A stretch of DNA of 64,000 nucleotides from Streptomyces sp. NBC_01476 (GTDB lineage Bacteria > Actinomycetota > Actinomycetes > Streptomycetales > Streptomycetaceae), in contig NZ_CP109446.1 in NCBI RefSeq assembly GCF_036227265.1, positions 8,015,001-8,079,000 on the forward strand. Direction: 5' to 3'. A model generated the notes under the pieces. The model made no database searches. It was given only the letters and a program-made list of their open reading frames with translations, and had not been told where the DNA came from. Positions 30,113 through 49,073 of this stretch are shown piece by piece. Positions within the stretch are counted from its first letter, which is position 1, and each line of letters opens with the position of its first letter. Position numbers and translations under genes: made by a program.

Positions 30113-31519
30113 ATGCCCCTGGAGTACTCGGAGACATTCGCTCGGCTCACCGCCGGAGACCCGAACGACGTCGTCAAGGCATTCGCGGCCAACCCGGCCT
30201 TCCGCGCCGCGGAATGGGAGGAGCTGACCACCGAGGACGACCCGTACCGCAGGCCGGTACGGCCGGACGACCTGGCCTGGCTCGACTACGGCAAGCCCAT
30301 GCCCGTGGCCAAGGCGCTCAAGCTCAGCGCCCTGCTGGGCCACCGCATGCTGCGCAACATCTACGACAGCGGACTGCTCTACCTGCCGCCGTCCCCCGGC
30401 CCGGCCGCCCAGGCCGACGCCGCCACCTTCTACAGCGAGAGCAACCGCGTGCTGGGCGCCATGGCGGCCCCCGTGCTGGAGCGCCACCTGTTCTCCCTGC
30501 TGGCCTCGGAGCGCAAGCCGCTGCCCGGGTACGCCCCCGAGCAGGTCGCGGCGGCGATCGCCGACTACCACCAGCAGCGGCTCGCCGAATCCGGACAGGC
30601 GTTCACCGCCGCGCTGTCCACCAAGGACCGCAAGGCGTCGGCGACCTTCGTCCTGCTCCAGTTCAGCTCCTACCTGCCCGCCTCCCGGCTGGCCGTCGGC
30701 CGGGCCGCGCTCGGCGAGTACGACATCGCCCACCCGGGCGCCCGCGTCGCGCTGCTGGACGACTACCGCACCTGGGCTGGTCTGAGCGGCCAGTACCGCG
30801 CGCTGATGGAGGGCGCCGGACTCAAGACCACCACCGGCGCCTACTGGCAGCTCTACCTCGGCACGTCGCTGGCCCGCGGCAACCACCTGCACTGGCTCTC
30901 CCGCGACCGCGAGAAGTACCCCGAGTTCCTGGGCGCGCTGCTGCACCACAGCATCGACCAGGCCGTCACGGCCGCCCGGTTCGCCGACGTCTTCGAGGAC
31001 GGACTCGGCGTGCGCCCGGCGCTCTTCGACCACCTCGGCGTCGCCCCCGGCCACCTCGTCGACCTGGTCGGCCGCTGGGTGGAGCCGCTGCTGGAGCTCT
31101 ACGGTCCGGAGGGTGTCGAGCGCTTCCACCACGGCTTCGCCGACGCCGTATGGCTGGCCGCGCTGTGGGACGAGGACCTGGCGCAGCAACTGGCCTGGGC
31201 CGACAGCATCCCCGAGCACCAGGACAAGGCAGCGCGGATCAACAAGTACATCGAGGACAACGGCATCACCGTGGACCTCGACACCTTCGTGGAGAGCAAC
31301 GAGGAGACCTCGACCACCCATGTGCACGACGAGCACCGGCTGGTGATGATCGAGCGCGGGGAGATGCACTTCTGGAACAACGTCACCCACAAGATAGATC
31401 TGCACGAGGGCGACAAGGTGCTCATCCCGGTCTCCCGGCTGCACGGCTCGACCGTGCTCTCCGGCGAGTGCACCTACCACCAGCCGATCATTCCCGAGGA
31501 CATGTACGCGCGGTTCTGA
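30113..31519 (+). CDS. SznF/GrbD-like N-N bond-forming protein: degenerate diiron domain plus intact cupin
   Basis: 468 residues, against about 471 for SznF, the N-nitrosating metalloenzyme of streptozotocin biosynthesis. The N-terminal dimerisation region matches recalled SznF features (NPAFRAAEW, DDPYRRPVRP, LDYGK, FYSESNRVLG). Residues ~115-370 form the heme-oxygenase-like fold. The C-terminal cupin keeps its iron histidines as H403, H405 (TTHVHDE) and H444 (SRLHGS), with the same 2- and 39-residue spacings as SznF H407/H409/H448. In the central domain, SznF ligands E189, H225, E281 and D315 have no equivalent here, while H311 and H318 correspond to H307 and H314. So diiron N-hydroxylation is probably lost and only the cupin step remains. 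The neighbouring YqcI/YcgG protein could supply the hydroxylation, as proposed for graminine in gramibactin. It follows an iron box. Confidence 0.82.
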   Translation: MPLEYSETFARLTAGDPNDVVKAFAANPAFRAAEWEELTTEDDPYRRPVRPDDLAWLDYGKPMPVAKALKLSALLGHRMLRNIYDSGLLYLPPSPGPAAQADAATFYSESNRVLGAMAAPVLERHLFSLLASERKPLPGYAPEQVAAAIADYHQQRLAESGQAFTAALSTKDRKASATFVLLQFSSYLPASRLAVGRAALGEYDIAHPGARVALLDDYRTWAGLSGQYRALMEGAGLKTTTGAYWQLYLGTSLARGNHLHWLSRDREKYPEFLGALLHHSIDQAVTAARFADVFEDGLGVRPALFDHLGVAPGHLVDLVGRWVEPLLELYGPEGVERFHHGFADAVWLAALWDEDLAQQLAWADSIPEHQDKAARINKYIEDNGITVDLDTFVESNEETSTTHVHDEHRLVMIERGEMHFWNNVTHKIDLHEGDKVLIPVSRLHGSTVLSGECTYHQPIIPEDMYARF

Positions 31520-31609: not shown

Positions 31610-32704
31610 GTGCCTGTGTCCGACAACCGACCTCTCGCCGCGGCGCCGAACCCCCTGCCGCCGGGCCCTTCGACCGCCGGCGCGGTGGCGCAGAGCCCCG
31701 CGGCCGACGCCACCGCCGCCCAGACGCTGGCCGCCTGCACCATCGGCGCCACCCCGCCGTGGGGACCGGCGGCCGCGCGTGAGCTGGTGGAGACCCTGCT
31801 CGACACCGACCGGCCCTTCCCCTGCACCTTCGCGGTGGCCGCGGCCAAGAAGCAGTCGCTGCGGTTCGGATTCATCGACAGCCCGCACGACGACAGCACC
31901 TGGGGACCGCTGGCCGGCATCCTTCAGGACTACCTCGCCACCTACCGGCAACTGGGCAAGGACACCTCCCTGGTGGTCCTCTTCCGGCCCGAGGAGCAGC
32001 CGAGCACGCTCGACCACTACTTCCGCCGGTTCTGGTCGGTGCTGCAGTTCCTGCACGACGGCGACCCGGAGCCCTGGCCGGCCGGCAGCCCGCTGGACCC
32101 CGAGGAACTCTGGTGGGAGTTCAGCTTCGGCGGCACCGAGATCTTCGTCGTCTGCAACACCCCGGCCCACGTCACCCGGCACAGCCGCCACAACCGAGGC
32201 TTCATGATCACCTTCCAGCCGCGCTGGGTCTTCGAGGGACTGGAGCCCGACACTCCGCGCGGCGCCAAGGCCCGCCAGGTCATCCGCAACCGCATCCGCC
32301 GGTTCGACGGCATGGAACCCGCCGCCGAACTCGGCAACCACGGCGAGGAGGGCAACCGGGAGTGGCGCCAGTACTTCCTGCCGGACACCGCCGAGGGCAA
32401 GGTGCCCGGGTGCCCCTTCCTCGCCAGGCGCGACGCCCGCGAAGCGGTCACCGCGGTCCCGGACGGCGCCCGCGACGAGGCCGCGTCCGTCCCCGCCCCG
32501 GCCGGCACCGGCCCCGCCGACCAGCGCCGGTACACCGTGCTGGTCAACGACGACCGCCAGTACTCGCTGTGGCCGGCCGGCCTGCCGGTGCCCGGCCGCT
32601 GGCGCGGCACGGGCGTCCACGGCGGCCGGGACGCCTGCCTGGCCCATGTCGCCCGGGTCTGGACCGACATGCGCCCGGCGCGGTCCCTGGACCGGGCGGC
32701 GTGA
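31610..32704 (+). CDS. Fusion of YqcI/YcgG-family putative heme N-hydroxylase with an MbtH domain
   Basis: 364 residues. After a disordered leader, residues ~50-270 form a YqcI/YcgG domain (PFPCTFAVAAAKKQSLRFGF, the LVVLFRPEE segment, EIFVVCNTPAHVTRHSRH, FMITFQPR). Proteins of this family include heme-dependent arginine N-hydroxylases such as DcsA and GntA, by my recollection. An alanine/proline linker leads to a complete MbtH domain (~305-358): VNDDRQYSLWP, the Trp of RWRG, and CLAHVARVWTDMRP. MbtH proteins bind and activate NRPS adenylation domains and are normally stand-alone. The GTG at 31610 is preceded by GGACGGAG. The gene probably shares a transcript with the SznF-like gene; a strong terminator follows. 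Confidence 0.85.
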   Translation: MPVSDNRPLAAAPNPLPPGPSTAGAVAQSPAADATAAQTLAACTIGATPPWGPAAARELVETLLDTDRPFPCTFAVAAAKKQSLRFGFIDSPHDDSTWGPLAGILQDYLATYRQLGKDTSLVVLFRPEEQPSTLDHYFRRFWSVLQFLHDGDPEPWPAGSPLDPEELWWEFSFGGTEIFVVCNTPAHVTRHSRHNRGFMITFQPRWVFEGLEPDTPRGAKARQVIRNRIRRFDGMEPAAELGNHGEEGNREWRQYFLPDTAEGKVPGCPFLARRDAREAVTAVPDGARDEAASVPAPAGTGPADQRRYTVLVNDDRQYSLWPAGLPVPGRWRGTGVHGGRDACLAHVARVWTDMRPARSLDRAA

Positions 32705-33610: not shown

Positions 33611-33673
33611 CATTGCGACCGCATATCCAGTACGCCGCTCGACCCGGCCACGGCTTCGACACCAGGAGTGCCC

Positions 33674-34582
33674 ATGCCCCCGATCCAGGAGGAACTGCGC
33701 CGGCGCACCCGCCTGACGCGCCCGCAGGTCCGGATCCGCACCGCCCATGTGGTGCGGACCGCCGAGGTGACCGCGCGGATCCGCCGGATCACCGTCGGGG
33801 GCGACGACCTGGCCGGCTGCGGTGACGGACTGCCTGCCGACGCCTGGAAGTTCCTGCTCCCGCCCGCCGGCCGAGGCCGGGTCGACCTGCCGGTGATCGG
33901 CCCGGACGGCGTACCGGGATACCCGCCGGACGCCGTACCGCCGGTGATGCGCGCCTTCACCACCCGCCGGTTCGACGCGGCGGCCGGCGAACTGGCCGTG
34001 GACGTCCTGCTGCACGGGGACACCCCCGCGAGCGTCTGGGCGCGCACCGCCGCGCCCGGCGACACGGTGGGCCTGGCCGGGCCGCGGCACGAGTTCTTCG
34101 CCTCACCGGAGGCCGGCTGGCACCTGCTGGCCGGCGACGAGGCGGCGCTGCCGGCCATCGCGGCGATCCTCGAAACGCTGCCCGCCCGTACCCCGGTGGT
34201 CGCCCTCATCGAGGCCGACGACGAGGCGGACCACCTCGACCTGGCGGCTCCGGCCCTCGCCGAGGTCGTCTGGCTGTACCGGCGCGGCGCGCCGGCCGCG
34301 GGCAGCGGCCTGCTGGAGAAGGCGCTCCGCGGCCTGGACCGGCCCTTCGCCGCCGCGCAGGCCTGGCTCGGCGCCGAGGCGGGCGCCGTCCGGGCGATGC
34401 GCCGTCACCTGCTGGACGAGCGCGGGCTGCCCCGCCCCCAGCTCCAGGCCGCCGCCTACTGGAAGCACGAACTCACCAGCGACCAGCGCGACGCGCAGGT
34501 GTTCGCCGCCTACCAGGCGGCGGTCGCGGCCGGCGGCGACCCGGACGACCCGGCCCTTACGACGGACGCCGACCTGGTGTAG
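33674..34582 (+). CDS. Siderophore-interacting protein (FAD-dependent ferric reductase)
   Basis: 302 residues of the ViuB/SIP family, which reduces ferric siderophores in the cytoplasm to release Fe2+. The FAD domain has VVRTAEVTARIRRITVGGDD and the flavin-binding RAFTTRRFD. The NAD(P)H domain has LLAGDEAALPAIAAILETLP and ends with the family's YWKHELTSDQRD. The ATG at 33674 is placed after AGGAG; a GTG at 33668 is also in frame. Its 3' end overlaps the convergent ligase gene by 26 bases. An iron box precedes it. It points to a ferric chelate as the natural cargo. Confidence 0.9.
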   Translation: MPPIQEELRRRTRLTRPQVRIRTAHVVRTAEVTARIRRITVGGDDLAGCGDGLPADAWKFLLPPAGRGRVDLPVIGPDGVPGYPPDAVPPVMRAFTTRRFDAAAGELAVDVLLHGDTPASVWARTAAPGDTVGLAGPRHEFFASPEAGWHLLAGDEAALPAIAAILETLPARTPVVALIEADDEADHLDLAAPALAEVVWLYRRGAPAAGSGLLEKALRGLDRPFAAAQAWLGAEAGAVRAMRRHLLDERGLPRPQLQAAAYWKHELTSDQRDAQVFAAYQAAVAAGGDPDDPALTTDADLV

Positions 34583-36194
34583 CCGCGTGGGCGAGCAGCG
34601 CTCTGCGGTCCACCTTGCCGATCGCCGTCAGAGGGAGGGCTCCGATGGCCACCAGCCGGTCCGGCACCTTGTACCCGGCCAGGCCCCGCCCGCGCAGGAA
34701 CTCCCCGGCCTCGGCGGCGCTCGGAGCGCCGAGGCCGGACTCCACCACCACGAACGCGGTGATCCGCTCGCCCAGCACCGGGTCCGGCTCGCCGACCACG
34801 GCGGACTGCCGGATCGCCGGGTGCAGCGCCAGCTGCTCCTCGACCTCCTCGGCGGACACCTTGTCGCCGGCCCGGTTGATGACCTCCTTGATCCGCCCCT
34901 CCACCACGAGATGCCCGGTGGGCAGCGCGCGGACCAGGTCCCCGGTGCGGTACCAGCCGTCGGTGAAGGCGAGGGCGTTGTGCTCCGGCAGCCGGTAGTA
35001 GCCGCGCAGCGTGTACGGACCGCGGGTGAGCAACTGCCCCACCGCGCCGGGCGGTACGGCGGTCCCGTCGTCGTCCACGATCCGCACCTCGTCGCCCGCG
35101 CTGAGCGGGCGCCCCTGGCTGACCAGCACCAGCTCCTCCGGGTCGTCGAGGCGGGTCAGGTTGAGCAGCCCCTCGGCCATCCCGAACACCTGCTGGAGCG
35201 CGCAGCCGAGCACCGGCCGTACCCGCGCCGCGGTGGCGGCGTCCGGCTTCGCCCCGCCGACCTGGACCAGCCGCAGACTGGAGACGTCCTCGGGCAGCCA
35301 GGACAGCGCGTCCAGCCACAGGCCGAGCAGCGACGGTACGAGCGCGGTCACGGTGACCCGCTCCTCGGCGATCAGCCGCAGCGACTCGTCGGGGCTCGGG
35401 TCGGCCGGCAGCACCACGGTGCCGCCCACCGCCAGGGTGCCGAGGACCCCGGGGCAGGCGAGCGCGAAGTTGTGGGCGGCGGGCAGCGCGGCGAGGTAGA
35501 CGGTGTCCGGGCCGAAACCGCACACCTGCGCGCTGGCCCGGGCGTTGTACGCGTAGTCGTTGTGGGTGCGCGGGATGAGTTTCGGCAGGCCCGTGGTGCC
35601 CCCCGACAGCAGGAAGAGCGCCACGTCGTCCGCGGCGCCCGGCGCCGGCAGCGGCGCGCGCGGCGCGGCGCGCCCGGCCGCCTCCACGGCGGCCAGCCCG
35701 GTGAACTCCTGCGGGTCTCCCACCACCAGCACCTGCCGCAGGTCCACCCCCGGCTCCGCGGCCACCGTCCTGGCCAGCGCCCGGTAGTCGTGGCCGAGGT
35801 ACCGGTCGGCGATGAGATAGCCGGCCGCGCCGGAGAACGCGCACAGGTGGGCGATCTCCCGCTGCCGGTGGGCGGGCAGCGCGTAGACCGGCAGCGCCCC
35901 GATCCGCAGCAGCGCGAAGGTGGCCAGCACGAACTCGGCGCAGTTGGGCAGGTGGACCACGATCCGGTCGCCGCGGGTCAGCCCGAGGCCGAGCAGCCCG
36001 CGGGCGAGGTCGTCTGCGCGGGCGTCGAGTTCGGCGTAGCTGAGCCGGACCCCGTCACCGACGACCGCGGTGCGCGCGCCGTGCTCGGCGGCCGAGCGCC
36101 GCAGCAGCTCGCCGAGCGGCTCGTCCGTCCAGTAGCCGGCCGCGCGGTGCCGGGAGGCTTCCTCGGGGGGCCACGGTACGCATCCGGGCAGCAT
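34557..36194 (-). CDS. Salicylate-AMP ligase (DhbE/YbtE/PchD family)
   Basis: A stand-alone aryl-acid adenylation enzyme of about 545 residues that loads salicylate onto an aryl carrier protein. Core motifs are LFLLSGGTTGLPKLIPRTHN, FGMAEGLLNLT, WYRTGDLVR, GRIKEVINRAGDKVSAEEVE, and the terminal LPLTAIGKVDRRAL with the catalytic Lys. The pocket segment AHNFALACPG has Asn235, Phe236 and Cys240 in DhbE numbering. Cys in place of Ser240 is the salicylate rather than 2,3-dihydroxybenzoate signature. The ATG at 36194 gives a normal ribosome-site distance; 36203 is an alternative. It is co-transcribed with the salicylate synthase gene, 27-36 bases downstream of it. Confidence 0.92.
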   Translation of the reverse strand: MLPGCVPWPPEEASRHRAAGYWTDEPLGELLRRSAAEHGARTAVVGDGVRLSYAELDARADDLARGLLGLGLTRGDRIVVHLPNCAEFVLATFALLRIGALPVYALPAHRQREIAHLCAFSGAAGYLIADRYLGHDYRALARTVAAEPGVDLRQVLVVGDPQEFTGLAAVEAAGRAAPRAPLPAPGAADDVALFLLSGGTTGLPKLIPRTHNDYAYNARASAQVCGFGPDTVYLAALPAAHNFALACPGVLGTLAVGGTVVLPADPSPDESLRLIAEERVTVTALVPSLLGLWLDALSWLPEDVSSLRLVQVGGAKPDAATAARVRPVLGCALQQVFGMAEGLLNLTRLDDPEELVLVSQGRPLSAGDEVRIVDDDGTAVPPGAVGQLLTRGPYTLRGYYRLPEHNALAFTDGWYRTGDLVRALPTGHLVVEGRIKEVINRAGDKVSAEEVEEQLALHPAIRQSAVVGEPDPVLGERITAFVVVESGLGAPSAAEAGEFLRGRGLAGYKVPDRLVAIGALPLTAIGKVDRRALLAHAATPGRRPS

Positions 36195-36230
36195 GCGGAT
36201 CATCCTCTCCTGGTGGGCGGGCGTGGTGGA

Positions 36231-37607
36231 TTATGCCTGACGAGGCGTCAGATACGGGGCGACGCTGGCGAGTTTCTCGCAGGTCTCGCGGTACTCGCGG
36301 TCCGGGTCGGAGACCCCGACCACGCCCGCGCCGGCGTGCACCCAGGTGCGGCCCTGATGGGTGTAGACGGTGCGCAGCGCGAGAGCCGCGTCCAGATCGC
36401 CGTCGGCGGTGGTGCGCAGCACCGCGCCCGCGTACAGGCCCCTGGTGCCGGGTTCGTTGTCGGCGATGACCTGGTAGGCGGCGGACTTGGGGATGCCGGA
36501 GGCGGTCACCGCGGGGAAGAGGGCCGCGAGCGCGTCCCAGCGGGTGCGGTCGGCCCTGAGCCTGCCGCGTACCCGCGACCCCAAGTGCCGTACGCTGCCG
36601 CGCTCCTTGACCGCCATGAACTCGTCGACCGCCACCGAGCCGGGCGCGCACAGGGCGCGCATCTCGGCATCGGCGAGCGCCACCGAGACGGCGTGTTCGT
36701 AGATCTCCTTGACGTCGGTGCGCAGTTCGGCCCTGGTCCGCGCGTCCTGTTCCGGGTCGTCGCCGTGGCGGGCCCGGGTGCCGGCCAGCGGCTGCGATGT
36801 CACCCAGCCGTCCGGCGAGACCTCGGCGACGGTCTCCGGGCTGAAGCCGGCCGCCCGCAGCCCCGGCAGGTCGAGCAGGAAGGACCTGGCGGGGGTGTTG
36901 GCCCGGCGCCCGGCGGCGTAGGTGGCGGGGAAGTCGAGGTCGAAGGGTACCTCCACCCGCCGGGAGAGGATCACCTTCTCCAGTTCGCCGCGGCCGATCC
37001 GGGCCACCGCGTCGGCGACCGCGGCCCGGTACGGTGCCGGGTCGCCCGCCTCGACGTCCAGCGGGCGGGCGGCAGTCTCGGGCCGGGTGTCCGGGCCGGC
37101 CGCCGCCGCGAGCACGCGCTGGAGCAGCCCGGCGTCGGCGCAGCGCAGGTCCAGCGCGCTGCCGCCGATCTCCACCTCGACCCGGGGCACGAAGACATGG
37201 GCGAGCGGCTGCCGCGGGTCCGCCGGCCGGCCGGCCGCGGCCGGCGCGCACTCGAAGGCGGCCCAGCCGTATCCGCGCCAGTCCGTCACCGGCGCGCCGG
37301 CCAGGGCGGCGCCCAGTTCGCGTACCGCGTGACCGGTGGTGCGCGAAAAGACGCGCCGCACGCCGTTCCAGTCGGTCTCGACCTCGTGCTGGCGGACCGT
37401 CACCGAACCGAGGGAACCGCCGGCGAACCACCAGCGGCCCGCCTGCTCGTAGACGGCGTACCGGTCGAACAGGCCGGCGCGGGCCAGCCGTACGGCGGTG
37501 GCGAGCGGGTCGTACCGGCCGGCGATCCGGGTGTGCAGGTAGCGCAGCGGGGGAGGGGTGGCGCCGGTCCCGTGCGGGCCGGTCGCGGAGGGGGCGTGCG
37601 TGGTCAC
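36231..37607 (-). CDS. Salicylate synthase (MbtI/Irp9/YbtS type)
   Basis: 458 residues, the length of MbtI. It is a chorismate-utilising enzyme converting chorismate through isochorismate to salicylate and pyruvate. Visible MbtI-type blocks are ELEKVILSRRVEVPFD, VDEFMAVKERGSVRHLGSRV, PAVTASGIPKSAAYQVI, GTRGLYAGAVL, TWVHAGAGVVGVSDPDREYR and ETCEKLASVAPYL. No separate isochorismate pyruvate lyase gene is present in the window, as expected for the one-enzyme route. The GTG at 37607 has only a weak ribosome site. The promoter lies in the divergent region with overlapping iron boxes. Confidence 0.92.
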   Translation of the reverse strand: MTTHAPSATGPHGTGATPPPLRYLHTRIAGRYDPLATAVRLARAGLFDRYAVYEQAGRWWFAGGSLGSVTVRQHEVETDWNGVRRVFSRTTGHAVRELGAALAGAPVTDWRGYGWAAFECAPAAAGRPADPRQPLAHVFVPRVEVEIGGSALDLRCADAGLLQRVLAAAAGPDTRPETAARPLDVEAGDPAPYRAAVADAVARIGRGELEKVILSRRVEVPFDLDFPATYAAGRRANTPARSFLLDLPGLRAAGFSPETVAEVSPDGWVTSQPLAGTRARHGDDPEQDARTRAELRTDVKEIYEHAVSVALADAEMRALCAPGSVAVDEFMAVKERGSVRHLGSRVRGRLRADRTRWDALAALFPAVTASGIPKSAAYQVIADNEPGTRGLYAGAVLRTTADGDLDAALALRTVYTHQGRTWVHAGAGVVGVSDPDREYRETCEKLASVAPYLTPRQA

Positions 37608-37861: not shown

Positions 37862-38266
37862 GTGACGCCGAATCCAGCCGGACCGACCGTGACCGAAGGC
37901 GGCACCGCCCCGTCCCCCGCACCTGACGCGGCGGCCGGTGAACCGGGCGGCTCCCCCGACCCGTTCGGTCTGCGCCGCACCGTCGCCGACGTGCTCGGCG
38001 TCGCGCCCGAGCGGATCGGGGACGACGACAACCTCGTCGCCCTCGGCGTCGACTCGGTCAAGGTGATGACGATCTCCGCCCGGCTGCGCAGACACCGGCT
38101 GCGGGTCGGCTTCGCCCGGATGATCGAGGAGCCGACACTCCAGGCGTGGTGGCGGCTCATCGACGAGTCGGCGGGGGAGGGGCGCCCGGGGCCCACCGCG
38201 GGAGAGCCCCTGGAATCCGGCAGCGGTACGCCGCCCGGATCCGACGGCGAGAGGCAGCACCGATGA
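37862..38266 (+). CDS. Stand-alone aryl carrier protein
   Basis: 134 residues. A disordered Pro/Ala/Gly leader precedes a carrier domain (about 38-105) with the phosphopantetheine serine in NLVALGVDSVKVMTISARLR. A disordered tail follows. The absence of any catalytic domain and the position opposite the salicylate genes point to an ArCP primed with salicylate by the ligase at 34557. The GTG at 37862 follows GAGGTGAAC. The stop overlaps the thioesterase ATG by ATGA. Confidence 0.88.
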   Translation: MTPNPAGPTVTEGGTAPSPAPDAAAGEPGGSPDPFGLRRTVADVLGVAPERIGDDDNLVALGVDSVKVMTISARLRRHRLRVGFARMIEEPTLQAWWRLIDESAGEGRPGPTAGEPLESGSGTPPGSDGERQHR

Positions 38267-39042
38267 CGTCGCTGGGCACCACCGGATCGCCCTGGCTGCG
38301 CACCTTCCGGGCCGCCGCACCGGACACCCCCACGCTGGTGGTCTTCCCGCACGCCGGCGGCGGAGCCGGGTTCTACCGGCCGCTGGCGCAGAGCTTCCCC
38401 GCCGGCGTCGGGGTCCGCGTGATCCAGTACCCCGGCCGCGAGGCCCGGGCCGGCGAGCCGCTCGTCGACGACATGGCCGTACTCGCCGACCAGGCCGCCA
38501 CCGCGCTGCTGCCCCTGCTGAACAGGCCGCTGGCGATCCTCGGGCACAGCATGGGCGCCCTCGTCGCCTACGAGGTGACCAGGCGGCTGGAGGCCGAAGG
38601 CGCCGTCCTGGAAAGGCTGTTCGCCTCGGCGCGGCACCCTCCGGCCGCCCACCGCGGGAGCGGACACCGCAAACACCTGCTGGACGAGGAGCACTTCACC
38701 CAGATGCTCCGGGACACCGGCGGCACCCCGTCCGCGCTGCTGGACGACCCGGAGATGCGCGCATACCTGCTGCCCATCGTCCGCAACGACTACCGGCTCA
38801 TCGAGACCTACGTCCCCGCGCCGGGACCCGCCCTGCGCACCGGGATCGTCTCGATCGCGGCGGCGGACGACGGCACCGTCTCGGCCGCCCAGGTGGAGGG
38901 CTGGCGCCGCGCCACCCGCGGCGACTTCGAGCACCTCACCTTCCCCGGCGGGCACTTCTACCTGCTGGAGCGGCCGGACGACCTCAGCGCGACGGTCCTG
39001 AGCCGGCTGGGGTGGGGCCCCGGCGGGAGCGGCACGCGGTAG
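38263..39042 (+). CDS. Type II thioesterase
   Basis: A 259-residue alpha/beta-hydrolase of the editing thioesterase family that clears wrong acyl groups from carrier domains. It has VVFPHAGGGAGFYRPLA at the N-terminus, the nucleophile GHSMGALVAYE, the Asp in AAADDGTVS and the His in FPGGHFYLLE. Because no terminal TE domain is present in any synthetase of the window, it might also act in chain release. The ATG at 38263 overlaps the ArCP stop. Confidence 0.92.
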   Translation: MTSLGTTGSPWLRTFRAAAPDTPTLVVFPHAGGGAGFYRPLAQSFPAGVGVRVIQYPGREARAGEPLVDDMAVLADQAATALLPLLNRPLAILGHSMGALVAYEVTRRLEAEGAVLERLFASARHPPAAHRGSGHRKHLLDEEHFTQMLRDTGGTPSALLDDPEMRAYLLPIVRNDYRLIETYVPAPGPALRTGIVSIAAADDGTVSAAQVEGWRRATRGDFEHLTFPGGHFYLLERPDDLSATVLSRLGWGPGGSGTR

Positions 39043-39131
39043 CGGCCGGCGGGCGCCCCGGTCTTGCCGCCGGGCCCCCGCGCGGCCGTCGAGGACCGGA
39101 CACATCCAACCGCACAAGGGAGTTGACTGTC

Positions 39132-41402
39132 GTGGGCACTGGCACACCCCTGCCGCCCGAAGCCCCGGATTCCGTCGCCGTCGTCGGTATGGCGGTCAGA
39201 CTGCCGGGCGCCGACACGCCCGAGGCGTTCTGGCGCAACCTGCGCGACGGCGTCGAGTCGATCACCACCTTCACCGACGAGGAACTGACCGCGGCCGGTC
39301 TGCCCGACGCCGCCCTCAACGACCCGACGCGGGTACGGACCCGGCCCGTCATCGACGCCCCAGAACTCTTCGACGCGGCGTTCTTCGGCTACAGCCCGGG
39401 CGAGGCGGCGGTCACCGACCCGCAGCACCGGCTCTTCCTGGAGTGCGCCTGGGAGGCACTGGAATCCGCGGGGCACGACCCTCGCGGGCTCGGCGACGGC
39501 ACCGCGGTGAGCGTCTTCGCCGGCACCGGCCCGGACAGCTACTTCCTGCACCACCTCCACCCGCGGCAGGCGGCGGCCGGACCCGGGGCCGGCTCCTTCC
39601 AGGACCTGCTGGGCAACAGCGGCGACTTCCTCGCCTCCCGCGTGTCGTTCAAACTCGACCTCACCGGACCGAGCGTCACCGTGCAGGCCGGCTGCTCCAC
39701 CTCGCTGGTCGCCGTCCACCTGGCGGTGCAGAGCCTGCTCGGCGGTGAGTCCGACCTCGCGCTGGCCGGCGGCGCCACCCTCTACTTCCCGCAGCGGACC
39801 GGCTATCTGTACCGCCAGGGCGGGGTCAACTCGCCCGATGGCCACTGCCGTGCCTTCGACGCGCGGGCCGGCGGCACCACCCCGGGCGACGGCGTCGCGG
39901 TCCTGGCGCTGCGCCGGCTCTCCGACGCCCTGGAGGCCGGCGACCCGGTGCTGGGCCTGATCCGCGGCACCGCCGTCAACAACGACGGCGCGGCCAAGGC
40001 CGGGTTCACCGCGCCCGCGGTGGACCCGCAGAGCGACGTCGCCGCCGAGGCGCTCGCCGTGGCCCGGCTCGACCCGGCCGACATCGACTACCTGGAGGCG
40101 CACGGCACGGGCACCCCGATGGGCGACGCCCTGGAGGTCACCGCGCTCGCCGAGGGCTACGCGGGCGCCCCGGCCGGCGGCCTCCGGCTCGGCACCGCCA
40201 AGCCCAACGTCGGGGACACCTGGGCGGCGGCGGGCGCGGTCGGCCTGGTCAAGGTGCTGCTCGCGCTCGAACACGAGGAACTGCCGCCGCTGATCAACTG
40301 CACAGAACCGAATCCGGCGATCGACTTCGCGGCGAGCCCGTTCCGGCTCAACACCGGGGCGACGCCGTGGAAGCGGGGGGACCGGCCGCGCCGCGCCGCC
40401 GTCCACACCTTCGGGATCGGCGGCACCAACGCGCACGTCGTGGTCGAGGAGGCGCCGGACCTTCCCGCCGCTCCGGCGCCGGACCGTGACTGGTACGCCC
40501 TGCCGCTGTCCGCCCGCACCCCGTCCGCGCTGCGGGCCCAGGCCGCACGGCTCGCCGGGCACCTCGAACGCCACCCCGCGCTGTCCCTGCCCGGCGTCTG
40601 CCACACCCTTCTCACCGGCCGCGCCCGCTTCGGTCACCGCGCGGTGGCGCTGGCCCGCACCCGGGCCGCGGCGCTGCTCGCGCTCCGTGCGCTCGCGGAC
40701 GCCGGGCCTGGCGGGGCGGCCGTCTCGGGCCCCGGCTGGACTCTCGTCCGTCCCGCCGGGTTCGGGGCCGAGTCCGGGTCTGAACCCGGGTCTGGGTCGG
40801 AGCCGCCCGGGTCCGGGTCCGGCGAGGGGTCCGCGGTGCCGGACCGGCCGGCGGGGAGCGACGGCGCCGGCGGGCCCTCGGCGCCCGGGGCGGCGGTCGA
40901 GCAGGCGCGGGGCTGGGTGGACGGCGGTACGGGGCCCGCGGCACCGGAGATTGTGCCGGCACCGCGGAAAGTCGTCCTGCCCACGTACCCGTTCGAACGG
41001 GCCAGGCACTTCGTCGAGCCGCCGCGCTTCGCCGCAGGCGGCGGTCCGCAGCCGCAGCCGCCGGCCGTCGCGGCGCACCCCCGGCCGGCGCTGGACACCC
41101 CGTACGCCCCGCCCGCCGACCGGCTGGAGGGGATGGTCACCCAGGCGTGGGGGAGCGCGCTCGGCATCGAAGGGGTGGGGCGGGACGACAGCTTCTTCGA
41201 CCTGGGCGGGCACTCGCTGCTCGCCGCCCGGGTCACGACGTCGCTGCGGGCGGTGCTGCCCGTGCCGACGGACGTGACCGACCTGCTGGACGCGCCGCCG
41301 ACCGCGGCCGGCCACGCCGAACGACTCAGACGGCGCCTGCTCGAGAAGCTGGGCGAACTCACCGACGAGGAGGCCGCCGCGCTGGCGGCGGAACTCGGGT
41401 AG
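39132..41402 (+). CDS. KS-carrier protein with altered ketosynthase (KS0-like)
   Basis: 756 residues. A ketosynthase fills about 10-440: nucleophile Cys188 in QAGCSTSLVAVHLA and first His (H324) in EAHGTGTPMGD. The conserved KxNxGH motif reads AKPNVGDTWAAAG, so the second catalytic His is Asp362. A post-KS segment, a Gly/Ser/Glu/Pro low-complexity linker (~545-605) and LPTYPFERARHFV follow. A carrier domain comes last with Ser695 in DLGGHSLLAARV. There is no acyltransferase. Loss of this His usually removes decarboxylative condensation, so the protein may only pass a chain on, or catalyse a C-C or C-N bond of another type. The GTG at 39132 is nine bases after AAGGGAG. Confidence 0.88.
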   Translation: MGTGTPLPPEAPDSVAVVGMAVRLPGADTPEAFWRNLRDGVESITTFTDEELTAAGLPDAALNDPTRVRTRPVIDAPELFDAAFFGYSPGEAAVTDPQHRLFLECAWEALESAGHDPRGLGDGTAVSVFAGTGPDSYFLHHLHPRQAAAGPGAGSFQDLLGNSGDFLASRVSFKLDLTGPSVTVQAGCSTSLVAVHLAVQSLLGGESDLALAGGATLYFPQRTGYLYRQGGVNSPDGHCRAFDARAGGTTPGDGVAVLALRRLSDALEAGDPVLGLIRGTAVNNDGAAKAGFTAPAVDPQSDVAAEALAVARLDPADIDYLEAHGTGTPMGDALEVTALAEGYAGAPAGGLRLGTAKPNVGDTWAAAGAVGLVKVLLALEHEELPPLINCTEPNPAIDFAASPFRLNTGATPWKRGDRPRRAAVHTFGIGGTNAHVVVEEAPDLPAAPAPDRDWYALPLSARTPSALRAQAARLAGHLERHPALSLPGVCHTLLTGRARFGHRAVALARTRAAALLALRALADAGPGGAAVSGPGWTLVRPAGFGAESGSEPGSGSEPPGSGSGEGSAVPDRPAGSDGAGGPSAPGAAVEQARGWVDGGTGPAAPEIVPAPRKVVLPTYPFERARHFVEPPRFAAGGGPQPQPPAVAAHPRPALDTPYAPPADRLEGMVTQAWGSALGIEGVGRDDSFFDLGGHSLLAARVTTSLRAVLPVPTDVTDLLDAPPTAAGHAERLRRRLLEKLGELTDEEAAALAAELG

Positions 41403-42032: not shown

Positions 42033-45000
42033 ATGACCGACGCCCTACCGCGGACCCGTGACACCGAGGAGTCCGCGTCCCGTACGGACGGGCTGTCCGC
42101 AGCCAAACGGCAGTTGCTGGACCGGTGGCTGGCCGGCGCGGCCAAGCCGCAGGCCATCGGCCGCCGCCCGGACACCGGCCCGGTGACCGCCACCCGCCCG
42201 CAGCGCCGGATGTGGGTCCACGCCAAGCTGCACCCCGGCACCGCCGCCTACAACATCGGGCAGGCCGTCCGGCTGACCGGCCCCCTCGACCAGGAGGCAC
42301 TGCGCGCCACGCTGGCCGAACTCGTCTGCCGGCACGACGCGTTGCGCACCACCTTCACCGAAATCGACGGCCTGCCCCACCAGGTGGTCGCCGAACACGT
42401 CGAACCGCCCCTGGCCTGCGACGAGTCGGACGGGGACCGCACCAGCGAGGCCGACTGGCTCTCCGCCCTCGACACGGCCCCCTTCGACCTGAGTGCCGGC
42501 CCCCTGATCCGCTTCGGGCTCCTGCGCCACTGCGCGGACGAGCACCTGCTGATGACCGTCGTGCACCACGCGGTCGCCGACGGCCTCTCCCTCGGCATCC
42601 TGCTGCGCGAACTGCGGGAGCTGTACGCCGCGTTCAGCACCGGACGGACGAGCCCGCTGCCTGACCCGGCAGTCACCTTCGCGGACTACGCGCACTGGCG
42701 CGAGGTCCGCGAGGCGAGCCCCGAGCACGCCGAAGAGGTCGCCGCCTGGCGCCGCGCGCTGGGCGACGAACCTCCCCGCCTCGACCTGCCCACCGACCGT
42801 CCCCGGCCGGCCGTGCCCGGCTCCCGGGGCGTCTCCCACCGCTTCACGCTGGACCCGGCCGCCTGGCAGGCGGTCCGCACCCTGGCCAGGGAACACCAGG
42901 CCACCCCCTACATGGCCGCGGTCACCGCGCTGACCGCCCTCCTGCACCGCTACACCGGGCAGCAGGACATCGCCGTCGGCTCCGTCGTGCACGGCAGGGA
43001 ACGCCCCGAACTCCAGGAGGCGGTGGGCTGCTTCGCCGACACCGTGGTGCTGCGCACCGCCGTGGACGGCGCCACCGCCTTCGGCGAGCTGCTGGACCGG
43101 GTCCGCGGCACCTGCCACGACGCCTACGCCCGCCAGGACGTGTCGCTCGACGTGCTCGCCGCCGAACTCCGCTGGGACCGCTCACCGGCGGCCGGCCCCG
43201 TACCGCAGGTGCTTGCCGTGATGCAGAGCCCGCCGGAGACCGCCGACTTCGCCGGGCTGCGGGCCGAACCCGTCGAGCAGGAGGTCGACTCGGCCCGCTT
43301 CGACCTGGTGCTCAACTGCTGGGAATCCGACGGCACGTTGCACGGCGCGATCACCGGCAACGCCGACCTCTACGATGCCGGCACGGTGGCCCGCTGCGCC
43401 GCCCACCTGGTCCGGCTGCTGGAGTCGGTGGCGGCCGGCGGGGCGGACACCACGGTGACCGACCTGGACATCCTGCCCGCCGAGGAGCGCGAAACGCTGC
43501 GGCGCTGGGGGCGTCCCGCCGAGGGCGACGACCCGCTGGTCCGGCGCGACCTGGCGGCCCTGATACGCGACGCCGCCCTGCGGAACCCGGCGGCCGTCGC
43601 CGTCGAGTGCGGCGCCACCACCGTGACGTACGCCGAACTCGACGCCCGCGCCGAGGCCCTGGCGGACCGGCTGCGCGGTGCGGGGGTCGGCCCCGAAACG
43701 CTTGTCGGGGTGCTGCTGGAACGCTCGGTGGAGCTGGTCGTGGCGCTGCTGGCGGTGCTCAAGGCGCGGGGCGCCTTCGTACCGCTGGAGGTCTCCTGGC
43801 CTGCCGCCCGGGTGTGGGACATCGCCGACCGGTGCGGGCTGCGGCTGGTGGTGGGGGAGGATGACGCGCAGCGGCTGCTGGCCGGGAGCGACATCGAGGT
43901 GGTGCGCCCGGGTGAAACCGGGGCACCCGCCGGGTCGGCGGCGTCCCTGCCTGCGGACGTCCAGGGCACCCCGGACACCACCCTGGCCGCCCCCGTGGAC
44001 GAACCCGTCGACGAACCCGTGGACGCCCCCGTGGACGCCCCCGTGGACATGGAACGCCTCGCCTACGTGATCCACACCTCCGGCTCCACCGGCACCCCCA
44101 AGGGTGTGATGATCCGTCAGCAGGCCATCTGCAACCGGATGCTGTGGCAGATCGGCAAGCTCGGCCTCGGCGCCGACGACGCCGTCCTGCACAAGGCGCC
44201 GCTCGGCTTCGACATCTCCGTCAACGAGATCTTCCTGCCGTTGGTGGCCGGCGCCCGCCTGGTGGTCGCCGAGCCCGGCGGGGACGGCGACGTGGACCGG
44301 CTGCTGACCACGGTCGAACGCCACCGTGTCACCTTCCTCTACATCGTCGCCTCGATGCTCGACGTGCTCCTCGAACGCGACGACGCTGCCTCCCGGATCC
44401 GTTCGCTGCGCCACCTGTGGTGCGGCGGTGAGGCCCTGACCGCCGACCTGTACGGCCGGTTCCGCCGCGCCTCCGCCGCGCGGATGTACCACGGCTACGG
44501 CCCCGCCGAGACCACCATCGGCGTCAGCTGCCGGGTCTTCGAAGCCGACGAGCCGGCCGAACGCATCACCATCGGCCGGCCCAACCCCAACGCCCGCCTG
44601 TACGTGCTGGATTCGGCGTTCCGGCCGGTCCCGATCGGAGTCCGCGGTGAACTCCACGTCGGCGGGCTGCCGTTGGCGCGCGGCTATCTCAACGACCCGG
44701 AGCGCACGGCGGAGAGCTTCGTCGCCGACCCGTACGCGGACACCGACGACGGCCGGATGTACCGCACCGGCGACCTGGCCCGATTCCTGCCCGGCGGCGA
44801 GATCGAGTTCCTCGGCCGGCTCGACGACCAGGTGAAGATCCGCGGCTTCCGGGTCGAACCCGGGGAGGTCGCGGCGGTGCTGGCCCGCCATCCCCGGGTC
44901 CGGCAGTCGTCCGTCGTGGCCAGGGCCGCGGCCGGCGGAGGCCATGAGCTGATCGGCTACTGCTCGGTGACCGCCGAGCCGGCCCAGGACCCGGCGGAGG

Positions 45001-45599
45001 TCTCGGGCGACGGGCTGCGCGACTGGCTGGGCGGGCTGCTGCCCGCGCACGCCGTCCCCCGGGTGGTCGTGGTGCTGCCGGAGCTGCCGCTGACCACCGC
45101 GGGCAAGGTGGACCGCAAGGCGCTCGCCGCGGTACCGCTGCCCACACCGGACACCGCCGACGGGTACACCGCTCCGGCGGGCGGCACCCAGGACGGCGTC
45201 GCCAGGATCTGGGCGGAGGTGCTGGAGACCGAGAAGGTCGGCGCGCACGACAACTTCTTCGACCTCGGCGGCCACTCGCTGCTCGTCATCCGGGTGCAGA
45301 CCCTGATCAGGCAGCGGCTCGGGCACGACGTGCCGCTGCTGGCCCTGTTCGGCAACGCCACCGTGGCCCGGCTGGCGGCCTACATCGAATCCGCCGCGGA
45401 CTCCGGCCAGGACACCGCGGCACCGCCGGTGGGCGCCGAGTCGGACGCCCGCGCCCGCGCACTGCGCGGCCGGGAGGCACTGGCCCGCCGCAGGACGCGC
45501 CGCCCGGGACCGGCGGCGGGCGGCCAGGCACGGCAGGACGGACCCACGCCGGACCAGCCCGCCGGTCACCCCTACCCGGACGAGGAGGCCGCGCGATGA
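42033..45599 (+). CDS. NRPS module C-A-PCP, predicted N-hydroxyornithine/graminine-type substrate
   Basis: 1188 residues. The condensation domain (~50-480) has VVHHAVADGLS, the intact HHxxxDG. The adenylation domain (~505-1020) has YVIHTSGSTGTPKGVMI, YGPAETTIG, MYRTGDLAR and TTAGKVDRKAL with the catalytic Lys. The carrier domain has its Ser near 1083 in DLGGHSLLVIRV. The ten-residue code read by eye is D-I-N-Y-W-G-G-I-G-K (from GFDISVNEIF, VTFLYIV, HLWCGG, HGYGP and TTIGVS). This is the code reported for N5-formyl/N5-hydroxyornithine in pyoverdine-type synthetases. Graminine, an N-nitroso-N-hydroxy ornithine analogue, would fit. A VD(E/A)P repeat interrupts the A domain. The stop overlaps the next gene by ATGA. 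Confidence 0.93.
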   Translation: MTDALPRTRDTEESASRTDGLSAAKRQLLDRWLAGAAKPQAIGRRPDTGPVTATRPQRRMWVHAKLHPGTAAYNIGQAVRLTGPLDQEALRATLAELVCRHDALRTTFTEIDGLPHQVVAEHVEPPLACDESDGDRTSEADWLSALDTAPFDLSAGPLIRFGLLRHCADEHLLMTVVHHAVADGLSLGILLRELRELYAAFSTGRTSPLPDPAVTFADYAHWREVREASPEHAEEVAAWRRALGDEPPRLDLPTDRPRPAVPGSRGVSHRFTLDPAAWQAVRTLAREHQATPYMAAVTALTALLHRYTGQQDIAVGSVVHGRERPELQEAVGCFADTVVLRTAVDGATAFGELLDRVRGTCHDAYARQDVSLDVLAAELRWDRSPAAGPVPQVLAVMQSPPETADFAGLRAEPVEQEVDSARFDLVLNCWESDGTLHGAITGNADLYDAGTVARCAAHLVRLLESVAAGGADTTVTDLDILPAEERETLRRWGRPAEGDDPLVRRDLAALIRDAALRNPAAVAVECGATTVTYAELDARAEALADRLRGAGVGPETLVGVLLERSVELVVALLAVLKARGAFVPLEVSWPAARVWDIADRCGLRLVVGEDDAQRLLAGSDIEVVRPGETGAPAGSAASLPADVQGTPDTTLAAPVDEPVDEPVDAPVDAPVDMERLAYVIHTSGSTGTPKGVMIRQQAICNRMLWQIGKLGLGADDAVLHKAPLGFDISVNEIFLPLVAGARLVVAEPGGDGDVDRLLTTVERHRVTFLYIVASMLDVLLERDDAASRIRSLRHLWCGGEALTADLYGRFRRASAARMYHGYGPAETTIGVSCRVFEADEPAERITIGRPNPNARLYVLDSAFRPVPIGVRGELHVGGLPLARGYLNDPERTAESFVADPYADTDDGRMYRTGDLARFLPGGEIEFLGRLDDQVKIRGFRVEPGEVAAVLARHPRVRQSSVVARAAAGGGHELIGYCSVTAEPAQDPAEVSGDGLRDWLGGLLPAHAVPRVVVVLPELPLTTAGKVDRKALAAVPLPTPDTADGYTAPAGGTQDGVARIWAEVLETEKVGAHDNFFDLGGHSLLVIRVQTLIRQRLGHDVPLLALFGNATVARLAAYIESAADSGQDTAAPPVGAESDARARALRGREALARRRTRRPGPAAGGQARQDGPTPDQPAGHPYPDEEAAR
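43992..44048 (+). repeat. 12-base tandem repeat inside an adenylation domain
   Basis: Nearly five copies of CCCGTGGACG(AA/CC), encoding Pro-Val-Asp-Glu/Ala repeats, in a loop before the A3 motif of the C-A-PCP protein. It stays in frame and probably forms a flexible surface loop. Confidence 0.85.
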
Positions 45600-48500
45600 C
45601 CCCCGCACCGGACGGCGCCCCCGCGGCGCGCCCGCCGCACCCCTTCCCGCTGACCGACACCCAGCAGGCGTACCTCGTCGGCCGCGGCGACCTCTACCCG
45701 CTGGGCAACGTCAGCACGCACGCCTACCTGGAACTCGAAGGCCCGCTGGACATCGGCCGGTTCGTCCGTGCCTGGCGCCTCCTGGTCGACCGGCACCCGA
45801 TGCTGCGCGCGGTCATCGACCCGGACCGCCAGGAACAGCAGGTGCTGCCGGAAGTGCCCGATCCGCCGATCGAGATCGTGGACCTGCGCGACCGCCCCCC
45901 GCAGGAGACCCGCGACACTCTCGCCGAGCTGCGCGAACGGCTGTCCCACGAGGTACGGCCCGCCGACCGCTGGCCGCTGTTCTCCGTCGCGGTCTGCCTG
46001 CTCGGCGACGGCATCTGCCGGGTGCACATCGGCTTCGACGGGCTGACCGTCGACTGGGCCAGCTGGCATGTGATGTACCGGGACCTGTCCGCCTACTACG
46101 AAGACCCGGACACCCCGCTGCCCGGGCTTCCCGCCACCTTCGAGGAGTATCTGGCGGCGGCCGCCGACGGCGGCGACGCCGAACAGACCGGCGAGGCCGA
46201 GGAGTTCTGGCGCAAACGGCTCTCCGTCCTGCCCGACGCCCCCGACCTGCCGCTGCGCACCGACCCCGGCTCCGTCCAGCGGCCCCGCTTCGTCCGCCGC
46301 GAGGCCGTACTGGACCGCGACACCTGGACCCGGCTGCGGCAGCGCGCGGCGAAGGCCGGCCTGACCCCGACCGGGGTGGTGCTTGCGGCCTACGCGGAGG
46401 TGATCGCCCGCTGGAGCACCACGGACCGCTTCACCCTCAACGTACCGAGCATGAACCGGGAACCGCTGGTGCCAGGGGTCGCCGACCTGGTCGGCGAATT
46501 CGCCTCCTTCACCCTCGTCGAGGCCGACCACAGCGGCCCCGGCACCTTCACCGCACGGGCCAGGGCGCTCCAACGCCGCCTGCTGGAAGGTCTGGAACAC
46601 CGGGAACTGAGCGGCGTACGCCTGCTGCGTGAGCTGACCCGGGCCCGGGACGGCGAGCAGGCCCGGATGCCGGTCGTCCTGACCAGCACACTGGCCCTCG
46701 GCGCGGCCGAGCCCCACGCGCTGGAGCGTGCCCTCACCCACGTCCACGGCATCACCCAGACCCCCCAGGTCCACCTCGACGCCCAGGTGGAGGAGCGGCG
46801 CGGCGCACTCGCCTGCAACTGGGACGCGGTGGAGGAACTCTTCGCGCCCGGTGTGCTGGACGCCATGTTCGGCGCCTGGACCACGCTGCTCACCCGGCTC
46901 GCCGACGACCCGGCCGTCTGGGACCTGGACGACGCCGTACCGCTGCCTCCCGGGCAACTGGCCCGCAGGCAGGCGGCGCAGGGCCGGACCAGGCCGATCC
47001 CCGGCGAACTGGTGCAGGACGCGTTCCTGCGGCAGGCCGCCGCCCGCCCGGACGCGCCGGCCCTGGTCAGCCCGGCCGGCACCCTCGGCTACGGCGCGCT
47101 GCTCGACCGCGCGGCGGCCCTCGCCCACGTGCTGCGCGAACAGCCCGGCACGGATCCGGGCGCCCTCGTCGCGCTGCTCTTCGACAAGGGCGAGGACCAG
47201 GTGGTGGCGGCGCTCGCGGTGCTCCTCGCGGGCTGCGCGTACGTGCCGCTCGACCCGGAGGCGCCGGCCGGGCGGCTCCGGACGCTGCTCGGCGCGGCGG
47301 GTGCGGCCGTGGTGCTCACCCACGCACCGCTGGCCGGCGCGGTGCCGGCCGGCCCCTGGCGGGTGCTGCGGACGGACGGCGAGGCCGCCGGGCGGCCCGC
47401 GGTGGCGGGGCCGCCGGCGCCGGCGCGCGGACCGGGCGACCTGGCCTATGTGCTGTTCACCTCCGGCACGACCGGCACCCCGAAAGGCGTGATGATCGAG
47501 CACCGCGGGGTGGTGAACTGCCTGCGGGAGACGGTGGAACGCTTCGGGATCGGGCCCGGGGACCGCTGCCTCGGGCTGACCGCACTCCACCACGACATGT
47601 CGCTCTTCGACGTCTTCGGCGTGCTCGGCGCCGGCGGCACCCTCGTCCTGCCGGACGCGGCCCGCCGCACCGACCCCGCGCACTGGCTGGAACTGATCGG
47701 CGCCCACCGGGTGACCCTGTGGAACTCGGTACCGGCGATGATGGAGATGCTGCTCGACCGGCTGGCCGACACGGGCACCCAAGGCCCCAGCACGCTGCGG
47801 CTCGCCTTCCTCGGCGGCGACTGGATCCCGCTGCGCACCGTCGCGGAGCTGGCCGGGCGGCTTCCCGCGGCCCGGCTGGTCTCGGTCGGCGGTCCGACCG
47901 AGACCACGCTGTGGAACATCTGGTACCCGGTGGAGCGGGCCGACCCCCAGTGGCGCTCCGTGCCCTACGGCACGCCGCTGGCCAACACCAGCTATTACGT
48001 GCTCGATCCGGCGCTGCGGGACCGCCCCGACGGCGTCACCGGTGAGCTGTACTGCGCGGGGCCCGGGCTCGCCCGCGGTTACCTCGGTGACCCGGAGGCC
48101 ACCGCCGCCGCGTTCGTCACCCACCCGCGGACCGGTGAACGGCTCTACCGCACCGGGGACCTCGGACGGTACGGCACCGACGGAGTGATCGAGTTCGTGG
48201 GCCGCCGCGACGGCCAGGTGCAGATCGCCGGGCGCCGGGTGGAGCCCGCCGAGGTGGAGGCGGCCCTCGCGGCGCATCCCGCGGTCGCGCGGGCCGTCGT
48301 GGTGGCGGTACGGCGCGACGGACTGGCCGGCCACCGCGGGCTGGCCGCGTTCGTCGTCCCGCGACGCGGCGGGCCGGTGCCCGAAGCGGACGAACTGCGG
48401 GCCCACCTCGGTGCGTTGCTGCCCGGGCACATGGTGCCTGGCAGCCTCACCGTGCGGGAGAGCCTGCCACTGACCCGCAACGGCAAGCTCGACCGTGAGG

Positions 48501-48898
48501 CGCTGGAACGCACCGCCGCGGCGGCGCCGATACCGGCGCCCGAGGGGGCGGAGGACACCGGGGACCCGCTGGTCGAACTCCTCGCCAGGACCTGGGCCGC
48601 CGCGCTCGGCCTGCCCCGGGTGGGCCCGCGCGACAACTTCTTCGCCCTCGGCGGCGACTCCCTGGTCGGCGCCCGCATCCTCGCCCGGCTCCACGAGGTC
48701 TTCCCCGACGAGGAGCTCTCGCCCCGCGCCCTGATGGCGACCTCGGACGTGGCCGGCATGGCCGCCGTCCTCACCCGGGAGGAGGTCCAGCCCGGCCGGA
48801 TGGCGGAGATCGCCGCCGTCCACCTGTACGTGGCGGACCTGAGCCCGGACCGGATCGACGAGGAACTGTCCGCCACACCGTCGGAGGTGGCGTCATGA
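45596..48898 (+). CDS. NRPS module Cy-A-PCP, thiazoline/oxazoline forming
   Basis: 1100 residues. The N-terminal domain begins FPLTDTQQAYLVGRG and carries DGLTVDWAS (DxxxxDxxS) near residue 149, the mark of a cyclisation domain. It condenses and cyclodehydrates Cys, Ser or Thr. The A domain has LFTSGTTGTPKGVMIEHRGV, LYRTGDLGRYG and TRNGKLDREAL. By eye its code is D-M-F-N-F-G-V-L-W-K. It shares Asp, Asn and Trp with the cysteine code DLYNLSLIWK but has Phe and Gly in place of Leu and Ser, so Cys is likely and Ser possible. The carrier Ser is near 1022 in ALGGDSLVGARI. With salicyl-ArCP it could give a hydroxyphenyl-thiazoline. It is translationally coupled to the previous gene. Confidence 0.92.
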   Translation: MTPAPDGAPAARPPHPFPLTDTQQAYLVGRGDLYPLGNVSTHAYLELEGPLDIGRFVRAWRLLVDRHPMLRAVIDPDRQEQQVLPEVPDPPIEIVDLRDRPPQETRDTLAELRERLSHEVRPADRWPLFSVAVCLLGDGICRVHIGFDGLTVDWASWHVMYRDLSAYYEDPDTPLPGLPATFEEYLAAAADGGDAEQTGEAEEFWRKRLSVLPDAPDLPLRTDPGSVQRPRFVRREAVLDRDTWTRLRQRAAKAGLTPTGVVLAAYAEVIARWSTTDRFTLNVPSMNREPLVPGVADLVGEFASFTLVEADHSGPGTFTARARALQRRLLEGLEHRELSGVRLLRELTRARDGEQARMPVVLTSTLALGAAEPHALERALTHVHGITQTPQVHLDAQVEERRGALACNWDAVEELFAPGVLDAMFGAWTTLLTRLADDPAVWDLDDAVPLPPGQLARRQAAQGRTRPIPGELVQDAFLRQAAARPDAPALVSPAGTLGYGALLDRAAALAHVLREQPGTDPGALVALLFDKGEDQVVAALAVLLAGCAYVPLDPEAPAGRLRTLLGAAGAAVVLTHAPLAGAVPAGPWRVLRTDGEAAGRPAVAGPPAPARGPGDLAYVLFTSGTTGTPKGVMIEHRGVVNCLRETVERFGIGPGDRCLGLTALHHDMSLFDVFGVLGAGGTLVLPDAARRTDPAHWLELIGAHRVTLWNSVPAMMEMLLDRLADTGTQGPSTLRLAFLGGDWIPLRTVAELAGRLPAARLVSVGGPTETTLWNIWYPVERADPQWRSVPYGTPLANTSYYVLDPALRDRPDGVTGELYCAGPGLARGYLGDPEATAAAFVTHPRTGERLYRTGDLGRYGTDGVIEFVGRRDGQVQIAGRRVEPAEVEAALAAHPAVARAVVVAVRRDGLAGHRGLAAFVVPRRGGPVPEADELRAHLGALLPGHMVPGSLTVRESLPLTRNGKLDREALERTAAAAPIPAPEGAEDTGDPLVELLARTWAAALGLPRVGPRDNFFALGGDSLVGARILARLHEVFPDEELSPRALMATSDVAGMAAVLTREEVQPGRMAEIAAVHLYVADLSPDRIDEELSATPSEVAS

Positions 48899-49073
48899 CC
48901 CGGCCCGCACGGCCAACGCGCCAGACCGCCACCCTCACTGAGCCCGGCCGGGACGCGGACCCCGTCCGCCGGCTGGTCGCCAACCGCGCCGGGCCGGTTG
49001 TCCGCCGAGCCCGGGGTGGTGGCGGGCGTGCGGGGTCGTCTGCGGGGCCGGGGCAGGGCGCGGAGGGCGGGTG

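Follow-up and report, generated by a model that had tools for sequence, protein, structure and literature searches.

The window analysed here, a stretch of 64,000 nucleotides of the Streptomyces sp. NBC_01476 genome, carries on its forward strand an open reading frame that starts with an ATG at position 30113 and closes with its stop codon at 31519 (468 amino acids), in position and length as given by an earlier sequence-only reading of this DNA. The encoded protein (the 30113 protein) was assigned to the SznF/ChmM/GrbD type by phmmer, MAFFT and an AlphaFold model. Its best solved relative in phmmer is SznF (6m9r; E = 1.6e-47, 165 bits, residues 12-456), to which it is homologous over the full length at about 27% identity. 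An AlphaFold2 model built from 35 locus sequences (mean pLDDT 87.8, pTM 0.91) was compared with solved structures by VIA-align and matched SznF best (Z 41.8, rmsd 2.8, 444 residues), followed by other N-oxygenases with a heme-oxygenase-like (HDO) fold, for example HrmI (Z about 24). The sequence-only reading had proposed an SznF homologue and a structural comparison as a check, and both the phmmer match and the model agree with it. Because the model superposes on SznF over this length, the whole three-domain architecture is taken to be kept: an N-terminal helical domain (residues about 1-137), the HDO domain (about 138-330), from which diiron ligands have been lost, and the cupin domain (about 380-468). 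Judged from the model, the loss is one of metal-binding side chains, the domain itself being retained.

The cupin site (31319-31477, forward strand) is complete. SznF H407, H409 and H448 correspond in the phmmer and MAFFT alignments to H403 (codon 31319-31321), H405 (31325-31327) and H444 (31442-31444), as previously deduced from the spacing of the histidines. SznF Tyr459, which calculations tie to proton transfer (PMC11705231), is additionally matched by Y455 (31475-31477). The histidine triad and the tyrosine are invariant in all 25 aligned members of the ligand-lost group, the window included.

The diiron site presents a different picture. Its ligands in SznF are E189, E215, H225, E281, H311, D315 and H318, and alanine replacement at six of these seven abolished activity (PMC11705231). 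At least four of the seven are absent from the 30113 protein: E189, H225 and D315 are replaced by S191, L224 and A311 (phmmer and MAFFT), and E281 by S280 (or I281). These four losses had been named correctly in the earlier inventory, which left out E215; here the carboxylate is retained as D217, and the position is D or E in most relatives. A chance loss in a single sequence was rejected, ligand loss being common to all 25 loci, whereas all seven ligands are present in 15 of the 15 szn-type homologues aligned. The remark that H307 and H314 remain was accurate in that both residues are present and are aligned by phmmer with H311 and H318. MAFFT, however, places a gap at position 311, which leaves the alignment of H307 uncertain, and equivalents of the two histidines are absent or shifted in loci L053 to L057 and throughout the f90 group. 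Since both are missing already from L053, a locus of the same genus, H307 and H314 are probably not surviving diiron ligands, and they were set aside as functional leftovers.

From the sequence, a weak metal site near D217, H307 and H314 may be conceivable, and the central domain could thus keep a reorganised site (for example D217 with H307/H314) that still performs one hydroxylation. The retained carboxylate at D217, purifying selection on the HDO domain and the single-iron binding reported for some HDOs speak for such a site. We nevertheless consider it very unlikely, given the poor conservation of the two histidines and the dedicated N-oxygenase gene adjoining the 30113 gene. Furthermore, three residues newly conserved in the HDO domain of the ligand-lost group (E271, H278 and D282) would, by helix periodicity, share one helix face opposite the former E281 ligand. 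Within the genus, dN/dS amounts to 0.36 for the HDO domain and 0.20 for the cupin, the most constrained domain. A degenerating pseudogene was rejected on the basis of this selection on the HDO domain and of the reading frames of the relatives, which are free of stops.

The search for homologues covered 395 genomes from the family and 395 from the class, with hits in 27 and 17 of these, respectively (own genome counted); a search for related loci from the single sequence had returned two near relatives only. In the MAFFT alignment, most HDO ligands are missing and the cupin triad is retained in 25 loci, among them that of the window. With locus L058 added to the szn-type homologues, 16 loci have intact HDO ligands. 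Of the 25 ligand-lost loci, 22 have a YqcI/YcgG gene no more than about 10 kb away, as against none of the 16 HDO-intact loci (Fisher p = 9e-9, a value that overstates independence, as one evolutionary change underlies it). The three ligand-lost loci without a nearby YqcI gene come from contigs 6.5-12 kb long; in all three genomes a YqcI gene is present on another contig. Five genomes with an HDO-intact homologue carry YqcI genes elsewhere, away from the sznF-like gene. When the HDO columns were left out of the tree, the ligand-lost sequences clustered in a single group with the homologue from Tistrella mobilis (SH-aLRT 99), and ligand loss requires one change on this tree. Because of this grouping, the association is best read as a single evolutionary event that has long been maintained and not as many independent ones; several long branches call for caution.

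Other arrangements were observed among the homologues. The homologue at L058:9317-10669 (G262, C15) has the seven diiron ligands intact, with the cupin histidines replaced by Q, A and Y and Tyr459 by A, and lies near a gene for a PRMT-like methyltransferase; its end product may be a dihydroxylated arginine, with no N-N bond formed. The homologue at L059:9495-10841 (G176, C1), in an NRPS context, combines intact diiron ligands with a tyrosine in place of the first cupin histidine (TTYVHDED). On Azospirillum and Gloeothece plasmids (L097:5791-7538 and L098:5785-7508), homologues with intact HDO ligands are directly followed by a gene for a Rieske 2Fe-2S protein, a likely electron donor.

The adjoining gene (31610-32704, forward strand) encodes a ChmN/GrbE-type YqcI/YcgG heme-thiolate N-oxygenase fused to MbtH, as recognised by profile matches (PF08892, E = 1.7e-67; MbtH, E = 1.5e-15). 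The N-oxygenase part occupies residues about 50-270 and the C-terminal MbtH domain about 304-358. In AglA, C44 binds the heme, R166, K196 and R200 contact its propionates, and F152, R179 and F182 line the substrate pocket (PMC12866846). Alignment of the 31610 protein with AglA (E = 9.3e-30) places C72, the predicted heme ligand, at C44, R193/R222/R226 at the propionate positions and F179/R205/F208 at the pocket positions. All of these are nearly invariant among relatives. The predicted activity is N-hydroxylation of arginine. No other YqcI gene and no other MbtH gene were found in the genome (8.4 Mb). The YqcI-MbtH fusion is shared by members of the genus and by many relatives of the f90 family; it was not seen in L054-L057.

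Further downstream follow genes for a siderophore-interacting protein of the ferric siderophore reductase family (33668-34582, forward), a 2,3-DHB/salicylate-AMP ligase (34557-36203, reverse), a salicylate synthase (36231-37607, reverse; TIGR03494, 416 bits against an NCBIfam cut-off of 325), a free-standing carrier protein (37862-38266, forward), a stand-alone thioesterase (38146-39042, forward; the true start is probably near the carrier-protein stop) and a ketosynthase with carrier protein (39012-41402, forward). The assembly line continues on the forward strand with a C-A-PCP NRPS (42033-45599), the predicted graminine module, an NRPS with a divergent condensation (possibly heterocyclisation) domain, A and PCP (45596-48898), a C-KS-AT-MT-PCP hybrid (49071-55139) and a C-A-KR-PCP protein (55142-60724). 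The last arrangement serves the loading and reduction of alpha-keto acids in depsipeptide synthetases. A gene of the periplasmic-binding-protein family (Peripla_BP_2, 60792-61814, reverse) is probably involved in siderophore uptake. The product of the cluster is probably a salicylate-capped diazeniumdiolate siderophore.

The A-domain pocket of the 42033 NRPS (D-I-N-(I)-L-C-G-I-G) recurs almost unchanged in most of the other ligand-lost loci where an NRPS gene lies within reach. A literature search on the adenylation code DINYWGGIGK returned no match, and the argument from this domain therefore rests on genomic relatives. The nearest outside relatives are A domains of NRPSs about 3650 amino acids long; an ornithine/lysine N-monooxygenase gene was found about 8 kb from the related A domain in 10 of the 10 genomes checked. 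In one such cluster read fully, the related A domain belongs to the first module, and iron-siderophore transport genes lie between the NRPS and the N-monooxygenase (one cluster examined). We take this layout to be that of coelichelin clusters. Coelichelin contains N5-hydroxy- and N5-formyl-N5-hydroxyornithine, and graminine is the N-nitroso analogue of the latter. Because the pocket matches those of coelichelin-like hydroxyornithine synthetases, free graminine would be expected at the 42033 A domain, and the comparison suggests that this substrate, rather than carrier-bound arginine, is loaded. The adenylation domain with this coelichelin-like pocket lies at 43566-44690, and several f90-family loci carry two such domains.

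Similar pairs of proteins are known. In chalkophomycin biosynthesis (Streptomyces), the SznF homologue ChmM lacks the diiron ligands, and its partner ChmN is a heme-thiolate YqcI/YcgG enzyme; purified ChmN converted L-arginine into Nδ-hydroxy- and Nδ,Nω-dihydroxyarginine, whereas ChmM showed no activity in vitro with free hydroxyarginines (PMC11177257). The same study lists 48 NRPS/PKS-associated SznF homologues, all but one missing many HDO ligands, and 107 co-localised YqcI genes (PMC11177257). ChmM (469 amino acids) resembles the 30113 protein in length, in its NRPS/PKS cluster with a YqcI/YcgG partner and, by published description and not by alignment, in the lost diiron ligands and kept cupin triad. 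ChmN differs from the 31610 protein in length, its 264 amino acids leaving no room for MbtH, and chalkophomycin contains an N-hydroxypyrrole where the present cluster has salicylate genes. Gramibactin requires GrbD and GrbE, and synthetic L-graminine rescued mutants in either gene; GrbE homologues with an MbtH fusion are mentioned in the same paper (Hermenau 2019, PMC6771848). GrbD was described as similar to SznF in the cupin domain only, and GrbE as similar to arginine hydroxylases (Makris 2022, PMC9679993). GrbD/GrbE and the Tistrella mobilis homologues follow the same two-gene logic in proteobacteria and with other peptide backbones. The tistrellabactin producer T. mobilis KA081020-065 likewise combines a YqcI protein with an SznF homologue that has lost the diiron ligands and kept the cupin triad; this homologue is about 34% identical to the 30113 protein. 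Streptozotocin biosynthesis uses SznF/StzF, which shares the three-domain fold and the cupin residues. In SznF, however, the diiron site of the HDO domain is functional; the enzyme acts on Nω-methylarginine, does not depend on a YqcI protein and yields an N-nitrosourea.

The 30113 protein unites lost HDO ligands, a kept cupin, an adjacent YqcI/YcgG gene and an NRPS/PKS context, as found for the ChmM/GrbD type. It is thus very probably an N-N-bond-forming cupin enzyme of this type with a dead HDO domain, partnered by the 31610 N-oxygenase. The HDO domain would hold no diiron cofactor and act as a scaffold, the mononuclear-iron cupin site being the sole catalytic site. The 31610 enzyme would hydroxylate L-arginine at Nδ and Nω; the cupin would then rearrange the dihydroxyguanidine and form the N-N bond, and loss of the remaining carbon and nitrogen would give L-graminine (N5-hydroxy-N5-nitroso-ornithine), the predicted product of the 30113 protein. 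Free graminine would be loaded by the 42033-45599 NRPS into a salicylate-capped siderophore. For this strain we infer the cupin step, the metal content, the loading of free graminine and the identity of the product; because ChmM was inactive in vitro, N-N bond formation is inferred for the ChmM/GrbD subfamily as well. The split of labour advanced in the sequence-only reading is upheld by the ligand-loss pattern, the intact cupin and the adjacent YqcI partner, which match the reading of ChmM/ChmN. For the assay with N-hydroxyarginine that it proposed, the expected cupin substrate is Nδ,Nω-dihydroxyarginine and not the mono-N-hydroxylated compound.

The inactivity of ChmM on free substrates also bears on a route in which N-oxygenation and N-N bond formation take place on carrier-tethered arginine, with MbtH docking the N-oxygenase on the A domain and the SznF homologue accepting the thioester. 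This route was raised by the authors of the 2024 JACS paper, who found the A-domain code of ChmO distinct from those of other graminine NRPSs (PMC11177257), and the fusion of the N-oxygenase to MbtH, of which no second copy was found in the genome, may point to assembly-line chemistry. We regard it as improbable, however: the pocket of the 42033 A domain should suit a side chain of the N5-hydroxyornithine type more than a guanidinium group, and free arginine is accepted by ChmN and AglA (PMC11177257, PMC12866846). Loading of free graminine moreover agrees with the rescue of the grbD and grbE mutants by L-graminine, which argues against a tethered substrate (PMC6771848, PMC11177257). A speculative and rather unlikely proposal is that the 31610 fusion protein, the HDO-dead 30113 protein and the graminine module form one complex that converts unstable dihydroxyarginine and passes the resulting free graminine directly to the A domain; the E271/H278/D282 face would have been gained for such contacts. 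The lack of activity of isolated ChmM on free substrates would be accounted for by such a complex, if real.

The shared cupin residues would also fit an N-nitrosourea, as in streptozotocin, as the product instead of graminine. This outcome is most improbable, since none of the cluster genes scanned (part of the ORFs) was recognisable as encoding an SznE-type arginine methyltransferase, the context is that of an NRPS siderophore cluster with a hydroxyornithine-like A domain, and in the tree the 30113 protein lies outside the szn group, next to the homologue from a graminine-producing strain.

The split-of-labour design as such had been described before, chiefly in the 2024 JACS paper on chalkophomycin and also by Hermenau 2019 and Makris 2022. 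The present analysis adds the comparison of single ligand residues, the counts linking ligand loss to YqcI genes, the tree, the fused MbtH domain as the only one found in its genome, and the A-domain argument. The coelichelin-like A pocket offers a simple way to tell N-N bond formation on the free amino acid from formation on the assembly line, a point that the 2024 JACS paper had not settled (PMC11177257), and the MbtH-fused orthologues provide new proteins for reconstitution of the still-missing graminine-forming step. The cluster would represent a further example of a heme enzyme replacing the diiron half of SznF.
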